A stretch of DNA of 64,000 nt from Bacillus sp. P14.5 (GTDB lineage Bacteria; Bacillota; Bacilli; Bacillales; Bacillaceae_B): NCBI RefSeq assembly GCF_003316765.1, contig NZ_NIJF01000083.1:1-64000 (forward strand), written 5' to 3'. The first letter of the stretch is position 1. Each line of letters starts with the position of its first letter. The notes under the pieces are model-generated. The model was not told the origin of the DNA. It saw only the letters and a program-made list of their open reading frames with translations, and ran no database searches. Positions 578 to 7,615 of this stretch are shown here, in pieces. The translations under genes and the position numbers were made by a program.

Positions 578-1609
578 ATGAAGGTTGTTTTGGCCTCCCC
601 TAGTTTTCATCAGCAGCGGGGAAATACTGTGACGGTTCAACGGATTGCCGACGGACTCGGGCTCGCGGGTGTAGAAACCGAAATCATTTCTATCGAAGAT
701 CATCCGGAGATTTCGACATTCCCTGAAAGCGATTTGATTCACGGTTTTCATGCTTATAAATTTTTTACTTATAAAAAGAAGATGAAAGGAAGTCATCCCC
801 CTTTTGTCATCACAATGACCGGGACCGATATCAACCACGATCTATATGATAGACAAAGACGTGATACTGTCATCCAGTGCTTAATGGAAGCAGCCGTCAT
901 AACCGTATTTGATAAAGAAGCAAAAGAAACTCTTATTAGAGAGACTGAAGTCAAAGCATCGAAGGTCCATGTGATCCATCAGGGAACAAGCTCTTTAAAA
1001 GCCTCCCAAACCGAGATACAAAAAGAAGAGAATGTCTTTCTTTTTGTCCTTCCAGCCGGGATTCGAAAAGTGAAAAATATACCATTTGCCATCTATGCAT
1101 TAAATAAGCTGCGTTCAAGGTATCCTCAAATCAGGCTCTTGCTCGTTGGGCCTGTTATTGTGCAGGATGAAGGAGAACTAGTAGAGAAGCTCGCAAAAGA
1201 AAATAATGAATGGATTTCCTATATCGGGCAGCTGCCACATCGGGAAATGGGGGCCGTTTATGAACATGCGGATGTTGTACTGAACACTTCTCATTCTGAA
1301 GGGCAGCCAGCAGCCATTCTCGAAGCAATGGAAAGAGGACTTCCAGTCATAGCTTCTGATAACACAGGGAACCGCAATATCGTCACACATGGAATGACGG
1401 GCTTTGTATACACTAATGAAATCGAATTCCTTGATTATGCGGAAATTTTGCTCAATAATAACGAAATGAGGCATGAATTTGGCAGTTCAGCCAAATCTTA
1501 CATACTCCGCTATCATTCCAGGGAGTATGAGACCCAAACCCTGCTCTCCATTTACGAGGGGGTCCTCATGGAACAAAAATCTCACAAAATTGAAATGAAT
1601 AAGGAGTGA
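578..1609 (+). CDS. SenB-like family 1 glycosyltransferase (candidate selenosugar synthase)
   Basis: GT-B fold glycosyltransferase of 343 residues. The ATG at 578 has AAAGGAGG 8 nt upstream, so it is preferred over the GTG at 569. The N-terminal half carries RGNTVTVQRIADGL and VITMTGTDINHDL. The C-terminal half carries LPAGIRKVKN, IGQLPHREM and the GT1 nucleotide-sugar segment SEGQPAAILEAMERGLPVIAS. From memory of the family, the GN-VT, LTGTDLY-DL and LR-VKDPF positions match SenB, which joins selenophosphate to a UDP-sugar in selenoneine biosynthesis. The stop overlaps the ribosome-binding site of selD, so the enzyme and the source of selenophosphate are translationally coupled. That context is why a selenosugar role is proposed. 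A generic glycosyltransferase with another acceptor cannot be excluded. Confidence 0.72.
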   Translation: MKVVLASPSFHQQRGNTVTVQRIADGLGLAGVETEIISIEDHPEISTFPESDLIHGFHAYKFFTYKKKMKGSHPPFVITMTGTDINHDLYDRQRRDTVIQCLMEAAVITVFDKEAKETLIRETEVKASKVHVIHQGTSSLKASQTEIQKEENVFLFVLPAGIRKVKNIPFAIYALNKLRSRYPQIRLLLVGPVIVQDEGELVEKLAKENNEWISYIGQLPHREMGAVYEHADVVLNTSHSEGQPAAILEAMERGLPVIASDNTGNRNIVTHGMTGFVYTNEIEFLDYAEILLNNNEMRHEFGSSAKSYILRYHSREYETQTLLSIYEGVLMEQKSHKIEMNKE

Positions 1610-1616
1610 TCCGATT

Positions 1617-2666
1617 ATGACAAATAAAGACATCTTCAAGTTGACATCATTGTCTACTAAAGGCGGCTGAGGATGCAAAATTGGTCCTGAAGACCTGGCG
1701 CAGGTTCTGCGTCATTTGCCTCGATCTGTTGAAGATCCCAATTTACTTGTCGGCCTTGATACATCCGATGATGCCGGCGTATATAAGATCAATGAAGAAA
1801 CAGCACTGGTTCAAACCCTGGATTACTTTACACCAATTGTGGACGACCCTTATATGTTCGGCCAGATTGCTGCTGCTAATGCCCTAAGCGATGTTTATGC
1901 AATGGGCGGCAAGCCGATCACCGTTATGAATATTGTCGGCTTCCCTATTTCCACTTTAGATAAAAGCATCCTGGCTGATATTCTTTCAGGTGCTTCTGAT
2001 AAAGTAGTTGAATCTGGAGCTGTCCTGGTTGGAGGCCACTCCATTGATGACCAGGAGCCAAAGTTTGGTTTATCCGTTACCGGGGTTGTACATCCTGACC
2101 GCATACGCTCCAATGCCGCGGCTCAGCCCGGAGACAAACTGATTCTGACGAAACCTATTGGTGTTGGGATACTGACGACAGCCATTAAGAACGACAAGCT
2201 TCCTTCTGAAAACATCCAGGAAGTCATGGAGACTATGGCTGCCTTGAATAAAGACGCTGCAGAAGCAATGGAAGCTTTTCCTGTCAATGCATGTACAGAT
2301 GTAACAGGCTTCGGTCTTCTCGGACATGCAATGGAAATCGCTGAAGGAAGCAAGAATGGCATCACGATTGAAAAAGATGCAGTGCCGGTCCTTGCGATGA
2401 CCAAAGAACTAGCGCAGCAAAACATTATTCCAGGCGGCAGCCGTAAAAATCACAAATGGCTTGCAGACAGAGTTGATTATGATGCATCCATTTCTGAAAT
2501 TGATCAGTTGATTCTTTGTGACGCCATCACCTCCGGCGGCCTGCTGATCTCGGTTCCAGAGGAACATGCAGAGGCGCTGAATTCGGCCTTAAAAGAGAAG
2601 AATCTAAATTCAGCAATCATTGGAACTGTTACAAGTGAAAATCCAGGCAGGATTAATGTGAAATAA
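1617..2666 (+). CDS. selD: Selenide, water dikinase (selenophosphate synthase) containing selenocysteine
   Basis: SelD makes selenophosphate from selenide and ATP; it feeds tRNA-Sec charging and any selenosugar pathway. Reading from ATG 1617 (AAGGAG 8-9 nt upstream, overlapping the previous stop) gives MTNKDIFKLTSLSTKGG, then in-frame TGA at 1668-1670 (codon 18), then GCKIGPEDLAQVL. TGA replaces the catalytic Cys of the SelD motif, giving the well-known GG-U-GCK form. Other landmarks are GLDTSDDAGVY, DYFTPIVDDPY, ALSDVYAMGG, VGGHSIDDQEPKFG and TDVTGFGLLGH, all family-typical. A stop-codon-naive prediction would start at TTG 1716 and lose the glycine-rich N-terminal loop. Full length is 349 residues, normal for SelD. 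It implies that selA, selB and selC exist elsewhere in the genome; none is in this window. Confidence 0.93.
1668..1706 (+). promoter_or_regulatory. Candidate bacterial SECIS element in selD
   Basis: Downstream of the UGA (1668-1670) is a stem ACCTG (1693-1697) / CAGGT (1701-1705) with a G-U pair below it and the loop GCG (1698-1700). The loop lies about 27 nt after the UGA and begins with G. Both features fit the known bacterial SECIS consensus of an apical loop 16-37 nt away with a G in the first two positions. An alternative overlapping hairpin is GGTC-CTGAA-GACC (1683-1695). Confidence 0.6.
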
Positions 2667-2948: not shown

Positions 2949-3872
2949 ATGAAAAGAAGCCTATTTCTTACACTATTGATTTTCCTTTCCTTGATAATTT
3001 CCGCTTGCGGCAATGCAAATGAAAACCACAGCGGGAATAACGAAAATGCAGACTATACTGATGAAGCAACTGAGAGCGAAGCCTTTACCATAGGGGTTAT
3101 TCCTGCTCAAACGGAAGGCTCCATGGAAGGGGCAATGGATAAACTGCAAACTTTCCTTACCGATGAAATGGGCAGAGAGGTCGATGTGGAAGTCTACCCT
3201 GATTATAATGGAGTTGTAGAAGCGATGAATTATGACAAAATTGATATGGCCTATTTTGGTCCGTTATCTTATGTCATCGCACATGAAAAAAGTGGTGCAA
3301 AAGCCATCATTACACAGTTAATTGACGGTGAACCATTCTACCACTCTTACATCATCACGCATAAGGATAATCCTTGGAACTCGTTGGAAGAGTTACTTGA
3401 AGACAGTTCTGAAGTGAACTTTGCCTTTGGTGACCCTAACTCTACTTCAGGCTCTTTGATTCCTTCTATTGAACTGAAAGACCGAGGGGTATACCAGTCT
3501 GAAGATGAATATGATTTTGAATCTGTTCGTTTCACTGGTTCACATGATGCAACTGCATTAGGTGTGCTGAATAAACAAGTTGATGCAGGAGCCATCGACA
3601 GCGCGATCTATAATCAGCTTGTTGATTCCGGCAAAGTGGATGGTGAGCAAATTAAAACTATTTGGGAATCTGAGCCCCTTTTCCAATATCCGTGGGCAGT
3701 CCACCAGGATACCGATGAAGAAACGATTGAAGCGTTGCGCACAGCCTTTTTGGGTATAGAAGACCAGGAAGTGCTGGATGCCTTTGGAGCTACAGGTTTT
3801 ACTGAAGCGAGCAATGAAGACTATGACAGTATCCGGCAGGCAGCCCTTAAAGAGGGACTTATTGAAGAATAG
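2949..3872 (+). CDS. PhnD-like ABC transporter substrate-binding lipoprotein
   Basis: Periplasmic-binding protein of the phosphate/phosphite/phosphonate (PhnD, PF12974-type) family, 307 residues. Residues 1-20 form a lipoprotein signal ending in SLIISAC, then an Asn/Glu-rich linker, then the binding domain from about residue 46 (AFTIGVIPAQTEGSME). IDMAYFGPLSY and the serine-rich ligand loop FGDPNSTSGSLIPS are diagnostic for PhnD-type proteins. GAGGTG stands 5 nt before the ATG. It is first in a gene set with the permease (3884) and ATPase (4652). The family binds phosphonates, phosphite and related oxyanions. Proximity to selD raises the possibility of a selenium compound, which is inference only. 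Confidence 0.9.
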   Translation: MKRSLFLTLLIFLSLIISACGNANENHSGNNENADYTDEATESEAFTIGVIPAQTEGSMEGAMDKLQTFLTDEMGREVDVEVYPDYNGVVEAMNYDKIDMAYFGPLSYVIAHEKSGAKAIITQLIDGEPFYHSYIITHKDNPWNSLEELLEDSSEVNFAFGDPNSTSGSLIPSIELKDRGVYQSEDEYDFESVRFTGSHDATALGVLNKQVDAGAIDSAIYNQLVDSGKVDGEQIKTIWESEPLFQYPWAVHQDTDEETIEALRTAFLGIEDQEVLDAFGATGFTEASNEDYDSIRQAALKEGLIEE

Positions 3873-3883
3873 AGTGATTAGGC

Positions 3884-4639
3884 GTGTGGTTTAAAAAGAG
3901 AAGCATCTTCACTTTTCTTATATTGATGTTCTTTGTTTACGTCAGTATGAGACTGACAGAGTTCGATTTATCGAAGTTTAAAGATTTCCGCAATATGATT
4001 GACTTTTTATCTCAATGGTTCCCCATGGACTTTTCCCTTTTGCCCAATATGATTGAAGATGGACTGGAAACATTGGCAATGGCGTTTTTAGGAAGCTTTT
4101 TCGGTCTCCTGGTCGCCTTGCCTTTAAGTTTTATTTCAGCCAAGAATACGTCTCCGTCCTCCCTTCTTTATCATTCAGCCAGAGTGGGTTTGAGTTTTGT
4201 CCGTTCGGTACCTGAGATCGTTTTTGGTTTGATACTTCTTACTGCATTAGGCTTGGGACCCTTTCCTGCGGTGATTGCCATCATGATTCATAATATTGGA
4301 GTTCTTGGAAAACTTATATCTGAATTAATCGAAGCATCTGATTCAGGTCCGCAAGATGCAATGAAGGCTGTGGGAGCAAGAAAATGGTTTGCTTATTTCT
4401 TCAGTATTCTGCCCCAAATCTGGCCGAATGTGCTTTCACATTACTTTTACAGGTTCGAAGTGGCCATCAGGACTTCACTAGTTCTGGGATTCATCGGTGG
4501 CGGCGGTATCGGTCAGAGATTATTTAACGATTTTAAAACCTTTCAATATTCATCCGTTTCACTGGACGTACTGATCATTATGATCATGGTCATTGCGGTT
4601 GACTTTTTAGGCAGTTATGTGCGAAATAAAGTCATTTAG
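3884..4639 (+). CDS. PhnE-like ABC transporter permease
   Basis: Inner-membrane subunit of 251 residues with about six hydrophobic segments: residues 8-24, about 62-90, a central pair, and a C-terminal segment DVLIIMIMVIAVDFLG. The EAA loop that contacts the ATPase is seen in DAMKAVGARKWFAYFFSILP. RSVPEIVFGLILLTALGLGP is typical of the PhnE/MetI-like family. The start is GTG 3884, 11 nt after the stop of the binding protein, with a weak ribosome site, which suggests translational coupling. Its stop TAG overlaps the ribosome site of the ATPase gene. Confidence 0.9.
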   Translation: MWFKKRSIFTFLILMFFVYVSMRLTEFDLSKFKDFRNMIDFLSQWFPMDFSLLPNMIEDGLETLAMAFLGSFFGLLVALPLSFISAKNTSPSSLLYHSARVGLSFVRSVPEIVFGLILLTALGLGPFPAVIAIMIHNIGVLGKLISELIEASDSGPQDAMKAVGARKWFAYFFSILPQIWPNVLSHYFYRFEVAIRTSLVLGFIGGGGIGQRLFNDFKTFQYSSVSLDVLIIMIMVIAVDFLGSYVRNKVI

Positions 4640-4651
4640 GAGGCAGAAGAC

Positions 4652-5407
4652 ATGTTAACGATTAAAGATATAAGTGTTCATTACAGAGGATCAAATCAGC
4701 CAGCGCTGTCTTCTGTCAATCTTTCCTTTCAGCAAGGAGAGTTTATTTGTATATTAGGAAAAAGTGGTGCAGGAAAATCCACTCTGATTCGAACGATTAA
4801 CGGCCTGCAGCCTGTTTCAGAAGGAAATGTGTTCTGGAATAGCCGGCCTCTTACTGCCAATAATGAAGAGGAAGCCAGGAAGGTCAGAAGAGAAATGGGC
4901 ATGATTTTTCAGCATTTCAATCTGGTCCCCCGCCTTTCTGTCATGCAAAATGTGCTGACCGGTATGTTCGGTTACCGCCCCACTTTTAAAAACCTGGTTG
5001 GATGGTTTACAGCCGAAGAAATCCAGAGAGCCAACGCGGTCATCTCTGAAGTCGGTCTTTCTGAGTTCACTGAGCGACGGGTGGAACATTTAAGCGGCGG
5101 CCAAAAACAGCGGGTCGGAATCGCACGTGCACTTGTTCAGAATCCGAAGGTTCTTCTCGGTGATGAACCGGTCGCCAGTCTTGACCCCGGAACATCCAAT
5201 CATATCTTCTCCTTGATTAAACAGATGCATGATCAGCATAATTTGCTGACCATCATCAATGTTCATGATGTATCTCTTGCCAAAAAATATGCAGACCGAA
5301 TCATCGCATTGAAAGACGGCTTGGTGATTTTTGATGGCAAGGCATCTCAATTCACGGAGAAGGAATACATGGAGACCTACGGAGCGGAGAATTACCAGCA
5401 TGTTTAA
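4652..5407 (+). CDS. PhnC-like ABC transporter ATPase
   Basis: Cytoplasmic energy-coupling subunit, 251 residues. Walker A GKSGAGKSTLIR (about residues 37-48), Q-loop MIFQHFNLV, signature LSGGQKQRVGIARAL, Walker B VLLGDEPVASLD and the H-switch IINVHD are all intact. PhnC-type features include NVLTGMFGYRPTFKNLVGWF. AGGAGG stands 8 nt before the ATG. With the two preceding genes it makes a complete importer (binding protein, permease, nucleotide-binding domain). The next gene starts 19 nt later with a strong ribosome site, so a four-gene operon is likely. Confidence 0.93.
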   Translation: MLTIKDISVHYRGSNQPALSSVNLSFQQGEFICILGKSGAGKSTLIRTINGLQPVSEGNVFWNSRPLTANNEEEARKVRREMGMIFQHFNLVPRLSVMQNVLTGMFGYRPTFKNLVGWFTAEEIQRANAVISEVGLSEFTERRVEHLSGGQKQRVGIARALVQNPKVLLGDEPVASLDPGTSNHIFSLIKQMHDQHNLLTIINVHDVSLAKKYADRIIALKDGLVIFDGKASQFTEKEYMETYGAENYQHV

Positions 5408-5425: not shown

Positions 5426-6058
5426 ATGCATAGAAGTCCTTGAGTAGTTGATTCCACGAGGGTCGTGTACGACTCTATTGATGAAAATATCATAACAATG
5501 CTTCCACCTAATGAGAAAAAGACGGTGATGCTGACCTTTGATGATGGTCCAGGAAGAGCGCTACCCAGGATTCTGGAAATTCTTCATCAAGAGGAAGTCA
5601 AAGCTGCCTTTTTCTGGCAGTCCCGCCTCCTCCACCATCAACGGCCTTGGAAGGAAGTTATAAAGGCTGGTCATATCATTGGCAGTCATTCCTGTAAGCA
5701 TAGAAATCTCTCAAGGCTTTCTTTCCAAGAACAACACTCCGATCTTTCCAGGTGCAAGGAAACCATTCAAAAAATCATCGGGCAGCCTATAAACTACTTT
5801 CGCCCCCCTTTTGGACAATATAATGGCGATACCTTGAGAGCAGCCAGGGAGTTGGGGATGCAAGTCGTAATGTGGAGAATTGCTTCACTAGACTGGGAAC
5901 TGAAAGCTGATCCCCCAAAAATCGTCGACTATGTGATTGACAATTTGGAAGACCGTGCAATCCTTCTTTTGCATGAATTACCGCAGACGGTAGAAATACT
6001 GCCTTTATTAATCTCGCAGATCAAACAAGCAGGCTACCAATTCGGCCTCCTTGATTAG
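5426..6058 (+). CDS. NodB-type (CE4) polysaccharide deacetylase, possible second selenoprotein
   Basis: Metal-dependent deacetylase of N-acetyl sugars. CE4 motifs are present: TFDDGP (motif 1), HSCKH (motif 2, H-x-x-x-H), RPPFGQYN (motif 3), DWELKADPP (motif 4) and LLHE (motif 5). No signal peptide is visible, so a cytoplasmic substrate is likely, unlike peptidoglycan deacetylases. The start is the puzzle. GGGAAGGAG (5409-5417) serves ATG 5426, whose frame runs MHRSP-TGA(5441)-VVDSTRVVYDSID and is continuous with the catalytic domain. The conservative start, GTG 5465, has only GAGGG 2 nt before it. Since the organism decodes UGA in selD, codon 6 may be selenocysteine; a point mutation or paired indels could also explain the TGA. 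The domain call is secure, the start is not. Confidence 0.62.
5441..5467 (+). promoter_or_regulatory. SECIS-like hairpin behind the in-frame TGA of the deacetylase gene
   Basis: A perfect five-base stem CACGA (5455-5459) / TCGTG (5463-5467) encloses GGG (5460-5462). The loop starts 16 nt after the TGA at 5441-5443 and begins with G, at the short limit of the bacterial SECIS spacing rule. The stem is short and could be chance. Confidence 0.35.
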
Positions 6059-6598: not shown

Positions 6599-7615
6599 AT
6601 GACAGTCTTTGATAAGAATATAAATGGTTCAGAATTTCATTGGGATATGGAAAAAGGAGAATTTCAATTTGAGAATGATGAAGTCGTATTATTCTGGGTT
6701 AATACAGCCTTCAAAACCCTCCTTGATTCTATTGAAGAAATAGCTGGAGAAAAAGAAGCTAAGCTTGTGCTGGAAACTGCAGGATACCGGACCGGCATTA
6801 CTGTAAGCAAGTTTTACAGCGAGACCATAGGAAAAGCGGAAGAAATCTTAAAAAAGCTCCCAAATACCTACTTGACGGCGGGTTGGGGCAAAACAGATAT
6901 CGTTTCGGTTTCCTTTGAAGAAAAGACAGCTGTGATACGAGTACAAAATGGCTGGGAGTATAAGGTGAATACAGCTCAGGAAAAAGATCATGAAGGGACC
7001 TTCCTTCCTGGTCATTGGGCTGGTGTATTTTCAAGTTTATTCGGGGAAACGGTCTGGTACGAGGTTACCAAGAGCCAGATTGCAGGCGACGAGTGTAGTG
7101 AATATAGGTTCTATCCTTCATCAGTGACTCCTTCGCTGAATGTGAATACCTTGATTACAGAACAGAAAAAGGCAGCACAAGCGGAATTGGATACTATCAC
7201 GAGAGAAAGGACGGAATTTTTGTCGGAAACAATTAAAGAAATTTCTTCTCCCATCATTCCCGTGATGGAGTCGATCTTGGTTGTTCCTTTGGTAGGACCT
7301 TATAATGAGCTAAGAGCTGAAGAACTGCTGGACAGGACATTGTTGAATCTTCCTCGTTATAAAGCTACACATCTGATTGTCGATTTAACGAGCCTTAAAG
7401 GGGTGGATGATTACACTCTTACTTTTATTGATAAATTTGTACAGGCAACCTCCATTTTAGGAACAAAGTGCATACTGGTTGGAATTTCCGCGGAACTCAG
7501 CATGCAAATCACAAACCGGGGCCACAAGATCAACAGGGTTCCTTGCTTTTCCATCCTTCAGCAAGGCGTTATGCATGCACTAGATGAACTTGGTTTTGAA
7601 CTTTCAAAGAAATAA
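6599..7615 (+). CDS. STAS-domain protein with N-terminal V4R/XylR_N-like sensor
   Basis: Protein of 338 residues. Residues about 30-165 resemble the 4-vinyl-reductase/XylR_N-type sensory fold (AGYRTGITVSKFYSE and GTFLPGHWAGVFSSLFG). A helical linker of about 190-215 follows. A C-terminal STAS domain (about 220-330) begins SSPIIPVMESILVVPLVG, as in RsbR proteins of the stressosome. The RsbR-type phosphorylation region reads LIVDLTSLKGVDDYTLTF. By analogy it would modulate the sigma-B stress pathway or a related partner-switch. GGGAGG stands 7 nt before the ATG. It is a single gene with its own terminator. The ligand of the N-terminal domain is unknown. Confidence 0.78.
   Translation: MTVFDKNINGSEFHWDMEKGEFQFENDEVVLFWVNTAFKTLLDSIEEIAGEKEAKLVLETAGYRTGITVSKFYSETIGKAEEILKKLPNTYLTAGWGKTDIVSVSFEEKTAVIRVQNGWEYKVNTAQEKDHEGTFLPGHWAGVFSSLFGETVWYEVTKSQIAGDECSEYRFYPSSVTPSLNVNTLITEQKKAAQAELDTITRERTEFLSETIKEISSPIIPVMESILVVPLVGPYNELRAEELLDRTLLNLPRYKATHLIVDLTSLKGVDDYTLTFIDKFVQATSILGTKCILVGISAELSMQITNRGHKINRVPCFSILQQGVMHALDELGFELSKK

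Follow-up and report, generated by a model that had tools for sequence, protein, structure and literature searches.

The first 64,000 nucleotides of contig NZ_NIJF01000083.1 of Bacillus sp. P14.5 (contig C23 of the assembly; hereafter the window) carry on the + strand six genes in a row, encoding a family 4 glycosyltransferase (GT), the selenide, water dikinase SelD, the lipoprotein, permease, and ATPase of an ATP-binding cassette (ABC) importer, and a CE4 polysaccharide-deacetylase-like enzyme. There is good support for regarding these genes as an accessory selenium operon, a view that we hold with high confidence. Two of its proteins, SelD and the deacetylase, are probably UGA-coded, and the operon suggests an undescribed route for placing selenium on an amino sugar. 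The first-pass annotation, made from the DNA sequence of the window, had proposed a SenB-type selenium GT linked to selD; the linkage stands, whereas the membership in SenB does not, and the importer (2949–5407) and the deacetylase extend the operon beyond that account. The genome comprises 4.87 Mb in 121 contigs (99.8% complete, 6.41% contamination); the nearest named loci are those of Rossellomorea vietnamensis, with a GT identity of 80–82%.

Linkage of the glycosyltransferase with SelD

The GT gene (578–1609, 343 amino acids, ATG at 578 and stop TGA at 1607–1609) is followed immediately by selD (1617–2666, 349 residues including the selenocysteine [Sec] at position 18), and the overlap of its end with the selD ribosome site, described in the first-pass annotation, is evident: AAGGAG at 1601–1606 makes up the final two sense codons of the GT gene, 10 nt ahead of the selD ATG at 1617. 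To compare close homologs we scanned contigs of GTDB genomes with a GT profile (A1) and restricted the scan through two exact peptide patterns; the resulting 39 loci for this reason cover close relatives (four of them, L029–L032, appear identical to the congeneric genomes G034, G033, G017, and G016). SelD lies directly after the GT in 36 of the 39 loci, so that the neighborhood check bears out the linkage, and all six operon genes are present in 32; among the remainder, L036 ends at a contig end, L052 and L058 have GT and deacetylase adjoining with SelD elsewhere beside SelA, and L066 has the GT with permease, ATPase, and deacetylase, with SelD and the ABC lipoprotein on a different contig. 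Both SelD and SelA score over their cut-offs in all 39 genomes.

Across a sample of 398 Bacilli genomes, drawn evenly and searched for SelD at E 1e-60 and for the GT with profile A1 at E 1e-50, SelD was found in 121 and the GT in 30, the latter from 16 families. SelD accompanies the GT in 29 of these 30 genomes versus 121/398 overall (Fisher P = 2e-15, with kinship not corrected), and the sole GT-encoding genome without it (G117) is a draft assembly, its 1.9 Mb split among 280 contigs. The linkage of GT and SelD is not chance. The two genes lie at most 10 kb apart in 16 of the 29 genomes, in several gene orders, and among the 14 GT-encoding genomes in which the pair was not seen within 10 kb, 13 still encode SelD. 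By type, the SelD match carries an in-frame TGA in 83 of the 121 genomes and lacks one in 36, with 2 partial; most of the cysteine-type SelD stretches L185–L198 have a rhodanese-like neighbor, which we take to be the tRNA selenouridine synthase.

We fetched 100 further stretches; with the window included, they contain the SelD from 87 of the 121 genomes, and stretches around GTs are among them as well (the GTs of L200, L201, L202, L204, and L211 are weaker than 1e-50 and were included through their SelD). The GT occurs here tail to tail with SelD (L156, L171, L179, L202, and L204), paired with a deacetylase distant from SelD (L151, L154, and L160), or with the importer and no deacetylase (L155, L163, L164, L178, L200, and L211). 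This last module recurs in distant families (L163, L178, and L155), and the importer and the GT may therefore work without the deacetylase. For the 74 GTs compared (the window, the 39 loci, and 34 others), the same stretch holds SelD in 57, an importer protein in 50, and a deacetylase in 48; judged by this comparison, GT, SelD, PtxB-type importer, and CE4 deacetylase form one conserved unit. Ten proteins selected from the surroundings of GTs distant from SelD were scanned against Pfam, and we could attribute none of the matches to selenium.

The genome encodes SelA (542 bits), SelB (366 bits), and a tRNA-Sec (55.9 bits), all above cut-off. A quickly built tree of 134 SelD rows places the window SelD with the operon SelDs (46 rows; Shimodaira–Hasegawa-like approximate likelihood ratio test support 95), and eight GT-less congeners, fetched out of 25, cluster elsewhere, with SelA adjoining SelD in all eight. 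The operon with its SelD is therefore a separate form that has probably been exchanged. L046 (titled Pseudomonas sp. ISL-84) and L039 (Paenibacillus sp. FSL R5-0490) fall among the Cytobacillus rows in both trees; these assemblies are probably mislabelled or contaminated. A requirement of the GT for making Sec was considered and rejected, with 25 of the 30 SelD-encoding congeneric genomes lacking the GT.

UGA codons in selD and the deacetylase gene

The mechanical open reading frame (ORF) of selD begins only at 1716, because codon 18 is TGA (1668–1670). With this codon read as Sec, the protein scores 428.2 bits on TIGR00476 (cut-off 125), and the UGA is found in 37/37 operon SelDs. Downstream lies the apical hairpin of an element resembling a selenocysteine insertion sequence (SECIS) at 1696–1714, UGGCGCAG-GUU-CUGCGUCA; each of its eight pairs is retained in 27 or 28 of 28 distinct operon selD sequences, with changes on both sides of the stem at three pairs. 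Folding of the window hairpin is slightly better than that of shuffles (z −1.20, a single sequence), and Rfam near the UGA returned no SECIS match and two snoRNA-family matches far under gathering. With its conserved in-frame UGA and SECIS hairpin, the operon SelD is probably a selenoprotein.

The deacetylase (5426–6058) scores 116 bits against PF01522 (gathering cut-off 23.1) and retains TFDDG, HSxxH, RPPFG, DW, and LHE, the CE4 catalytic motifs. Its mechanical ORF begins only at GTG 5465, and upstream in frame stands ATG CAT AGA AGT CCT TGA; the frame thus runs from ATG 5426 through a UGA at 5441–5443, the probable Sec6 of M-H-R-S-P-U-V-V-D. Standard gene prediction would take the UGA at codon 6 for a stop and so shorten the protein. 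From 49 homologs of at least 120 bits we kept 46 at 200 bits or more, window included; the UGA pattern was not seen in the three dropped (L154, L160, and L218). The codon ahead of the conserved start is UGA in 46/46 and never UAA or UAG, Pro precedes it in 46/46, the first residue after it is V, I, or A, an ATG lies 4–6 codons upstream in 45/46, and a loose Shine–Dalgarno pattern fits near the start in 44/46. Codons 7–9 after the UGA, GTC GTG TAC, are invariant (44/44, 46/46, and 45/45 of the rows with that residue); across 89 conserved columns further along, by contrast, the most frequent codon of a column has a median share of 0.49, with a single column at 0.95.

These frozen codons are spanned by a candidate SECIS hairpin, AGGGUCG-UGUA-CGACUCU (5459–5476), for which 238/280 cells pair versus 84–114 in slid versions, with changes on both sides at two of seven pairs; as the pairs were set by hand from single-sequence folds, this count leans towards structure. 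Weighing against the hairpin, RNAalifold gave no consensus structure for the UGA region, some 10 of the 40 distinct rows adopt another fold, and sequences folded singly surpass mononucleotide shuffles only mildly (mean z −1.35, 26/40 below −1). Because of the in-frame UGA in 46/46, the frozen codons after it, and the small candidate hairpin, we consider the deacetylase probably a second selenoprotein of the form M-x-x-x-P-Sec, with high if not full confidence.

This is weighed against the account that the UGA ends a short leader peptide as an ordinary stop codon does, with translation restarting at GTG 5465. The invariance of this GTG in 46/46 and the failure of automatic consensus folding to yield a structure fit such an account; yet the flanking GTC and TAC are as frozen as the GTG, neither UAA nor UAG ever replaces the UGA, the residues on either side of it are constrained, and the hand-set hairpin pairs well beyond its slid versions. 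We regard a leader peptide as improbable.

The literature searched gave no prior report of a selenoprotein deacetylase or of this operon. In-frame UGA, candidate downstream hairpin, and Sec machinery are shared with the prokaryotic selenoprotein families as treated in a review (PMC13188914), whose main text uses none of the terms deacetylase, polysaccharide, chitin, or NodB. A search for FdhA gave two matches, both below cut-off and with no UGA seen at either active site (other selenoproteins were not surveyed, and the 36 kb around SelA, SelB, and tRNA-Sec were read for long frames only). In L260, an in-frame TGA precedes a 667-amino-acid frame of the FdhA family, whose odd-looking start may reflect a frameshift.

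Relationships of the glycosyltransferase and the importer

Among NCBIfam models, the best match of the window GT is NF038229 ("GPMC system family 4 glycosyltransferase"), at 265.5 bits and below its cut-off of 400; the literature searched gave no account of what the "GPMC system" is. TIGR04348 (SenB) comes second, its 90.2 bits far short of the required 300, so that the model search that had been proposed as a check spoke against membership, and we rejected the GT as a SenB. Both models match 53/53 aligned members. TIGR03999 (BshA) reaches 72 of the required 273.7 bits, and a separate BshA is encoded on contig C54 (552.6 bits); the GT is thus not the BshA of this genome.

The positions shared with SenB that the first-pass annotation had pointed out are present. 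The GN-x-x-T, TGTD, and R-x-x-K motifs and two Glu positions correspond to N16/T19, T81-G-T83-D84, R163..K166, E241, and E249 of the window GT, and the equivalents of SenB N20, T23, T85, R155, K158, E231, and E239 (numbered as in the available text of PMC10891094) are retained in 71, 66, 74, 74, 74, 74, and 74 of the 74 GTs. TGTD is common to this GT and SenB, whereas the genome's own BshA has HGTD; the SenB donor motif EGGAHV is absent, with EGQPAA at that place. The predicted fold is GT-B and closest to BshA. With profile A1, BshA passes E 1e-8 and no SenB entry does; a single-sequence phmmer search ranks SenB first; profile A3 gives BshA 88 bits (aligned from residue 44) and SenB 84 bits (from residue 3); and a profile of the N-terminal domain (A4) has zero matches in the PDB at E 0.1. 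Sequence by itself does not decide between kinship with BshA and with SenB.

The selenoneine pathway shares with the operon a GT-B fold enzyme adjoining a selenophosphate synthetase (SenB/SenC), but the operon adds the importer, the deacetylase, and a UGA-type SelD, and it is found in Bacilli, whereas SenB occurs mainly in beta-proteobacteria. The absence of a SenA-type gene reported by the first-pass annotation extends to the whole genome, in which PF03781 (the FGE-sulfatase domain, which we take to be the domain of SenA) has 0 matches. A GT that truly belongs to SenB, in an operon making selenoneine or close kin, would agree with the rank of TIGR04348 as second-best model and its match to all aligned members; given how far the score falls below the cut-off and the lack of the FGE-sulfatase domain, we consider this extremely improbable.

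The importer consists of a lipoprotein of the PtxB/PhnD type (2949–3872) and, by family models, a PhnE-family permease (3884–4639) and a PhnC-family ATPase (4652–5407). The closest solved relatives of the lipoprotein are PtxB phosphite-binding proteins (E 3e-42), and on NCBIfam models it scores 170 of 250 bits for "putative selenate" and 220 of 261 for PhnD. In alignments to PtxB, on which the residue match rests, the pocket Tyr, Tyr, STS, and His and the cap Tyr are retained in 50/50 rows, so that the phosphite-type pocket is preserved; it differs from PtxB in that the cap Asp (Asp22) is replaced by A, V, or S in 50/50, and in the linkage of the importer to selD. Selenite is like phosphite in shape, and by this resemblance selenite is a likely ligand. 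The pocket residues of PtxB are those given in the available text of PMC5700983; according to the part of PMC13188914 seen, no specific high-affinity selenium importer has so far been identified in prokaryotes.

Around the operon, a 53-base unit is repeated in tandem 6.2 times (86% match) just upstream, at the contig end (1–326), and downstream lies a STAS-domain protein (6599–7615), a relative of which stands at the same place only in L029–L032 among the 39 loci. Scans of the window returned no tRNA and zero Rfam matches at gathering score, and a plasmid search gave 123 records, every one below 60% identity.

A possible selenosugar route and its alternatives

The best single reading is that the operon makes a selenosugar of the glucosamine type, which we favor tentatively and which could well be wrong. 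The importer would bring in selenite or a similar small oxyanion of pyramidal shape; after reduction, SelD would make selenophosphate; the GT would move N-acetylglucosamine (GlcNAc) from its uridine diphosphate donor (UDP-GlcNAc) to selenophosphate, giving 1-seleno-GlcNAc, as SenB can (SenB accepts UDP-GlcNAc according to the available text of PMC10891094); and the selenoprotein deacetylase would strip the acetyl group, leaving a seleno-glucosamine that would store or carry selenium or act as a redox molecule. Selenium as the acceptor of the GT is here inferred. The UGA codons in both SelD and the deacetylase would restrict the pathway to times of selenium supply. The order of steps has a parallel in the making of bacillithiol and mycothiol, where GlcNAc-type transfer by BshA or MshA is followed by a deacetylase step, the deacetylases there (BshB and MshB) being of another fold family.

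Several observations weigh against a selenosugar. The fold predicted for the GT is BshA-like; among 36 congeneric genomes the GT was found in only 5, against 30 for SelD; and it occurs only with UGA-type SelD (all 29 genomes), being restricted to Sec-type genomes, with no case of an orphan SelD accompanied by the GT. The fold would suit a route in which the GT adds GlcNAc to a small organic acceptor and the deacetylase frees the amine, with selenium entering later or only gating expression through the UGA. We judge this somewhat unlikely: the BshA model falls far short of its cut-off, the genome has a BshA of its own, the GT reads TGTD like SenB where that BshA reads HGTD, and the linkage to SelD and the importer is left unexplained. 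A further alternative is that GT and deacetylase modify a cell-surface or spore glycan under selenium control, SelD and the importer belonging to the operon solely to meet the need of the deacetylase for Sec. The CE4 relatives of the deacetylase are spore and peptidoglycan deacetylases, a Sec-containing deacetylase requires SelD anyway, and SelA is present in all 39 locus genomes; but no signal peptide was seen in the deacetylase sequences, read by eye with no predictor, and 15 of the 74 GT rows have SelD, with or without the importer, and no deacetylase (12 after excluding L036, at a contig end, and L049 and L050, with a weak deacetylase-like match on the other strand). A glycan role is, in our estimate, distinctly unlikely.

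If the selenosugar reading holds, the operon may add to Sec, selenouridine, the selenium cofactor, and selenoneine/ovoselenol one more trait of selenium use, in which an importer, SelD, a Se-glycosyltransferase, and a Sec-containing CE4 deacetylase (a new selenoprotein family) would lead to seleno-glucosamine, gated by selenium through UGA; we put this forward as a possibility, with considerable doubt. In the available text of PMC10891094, the Se-glycosyltransferases characterized are SenB and two orthologs only, and that of PMC5322559 lists a glycosyltransferase among the STRING neighbors of YedE in one genome. The operon offers a candidate Se-glycosyltransferase and a candidate selenium importer in culturable Bacilli, and it predicts a small selenium compound that could be directly findable by Se-specific mass spectrometry.
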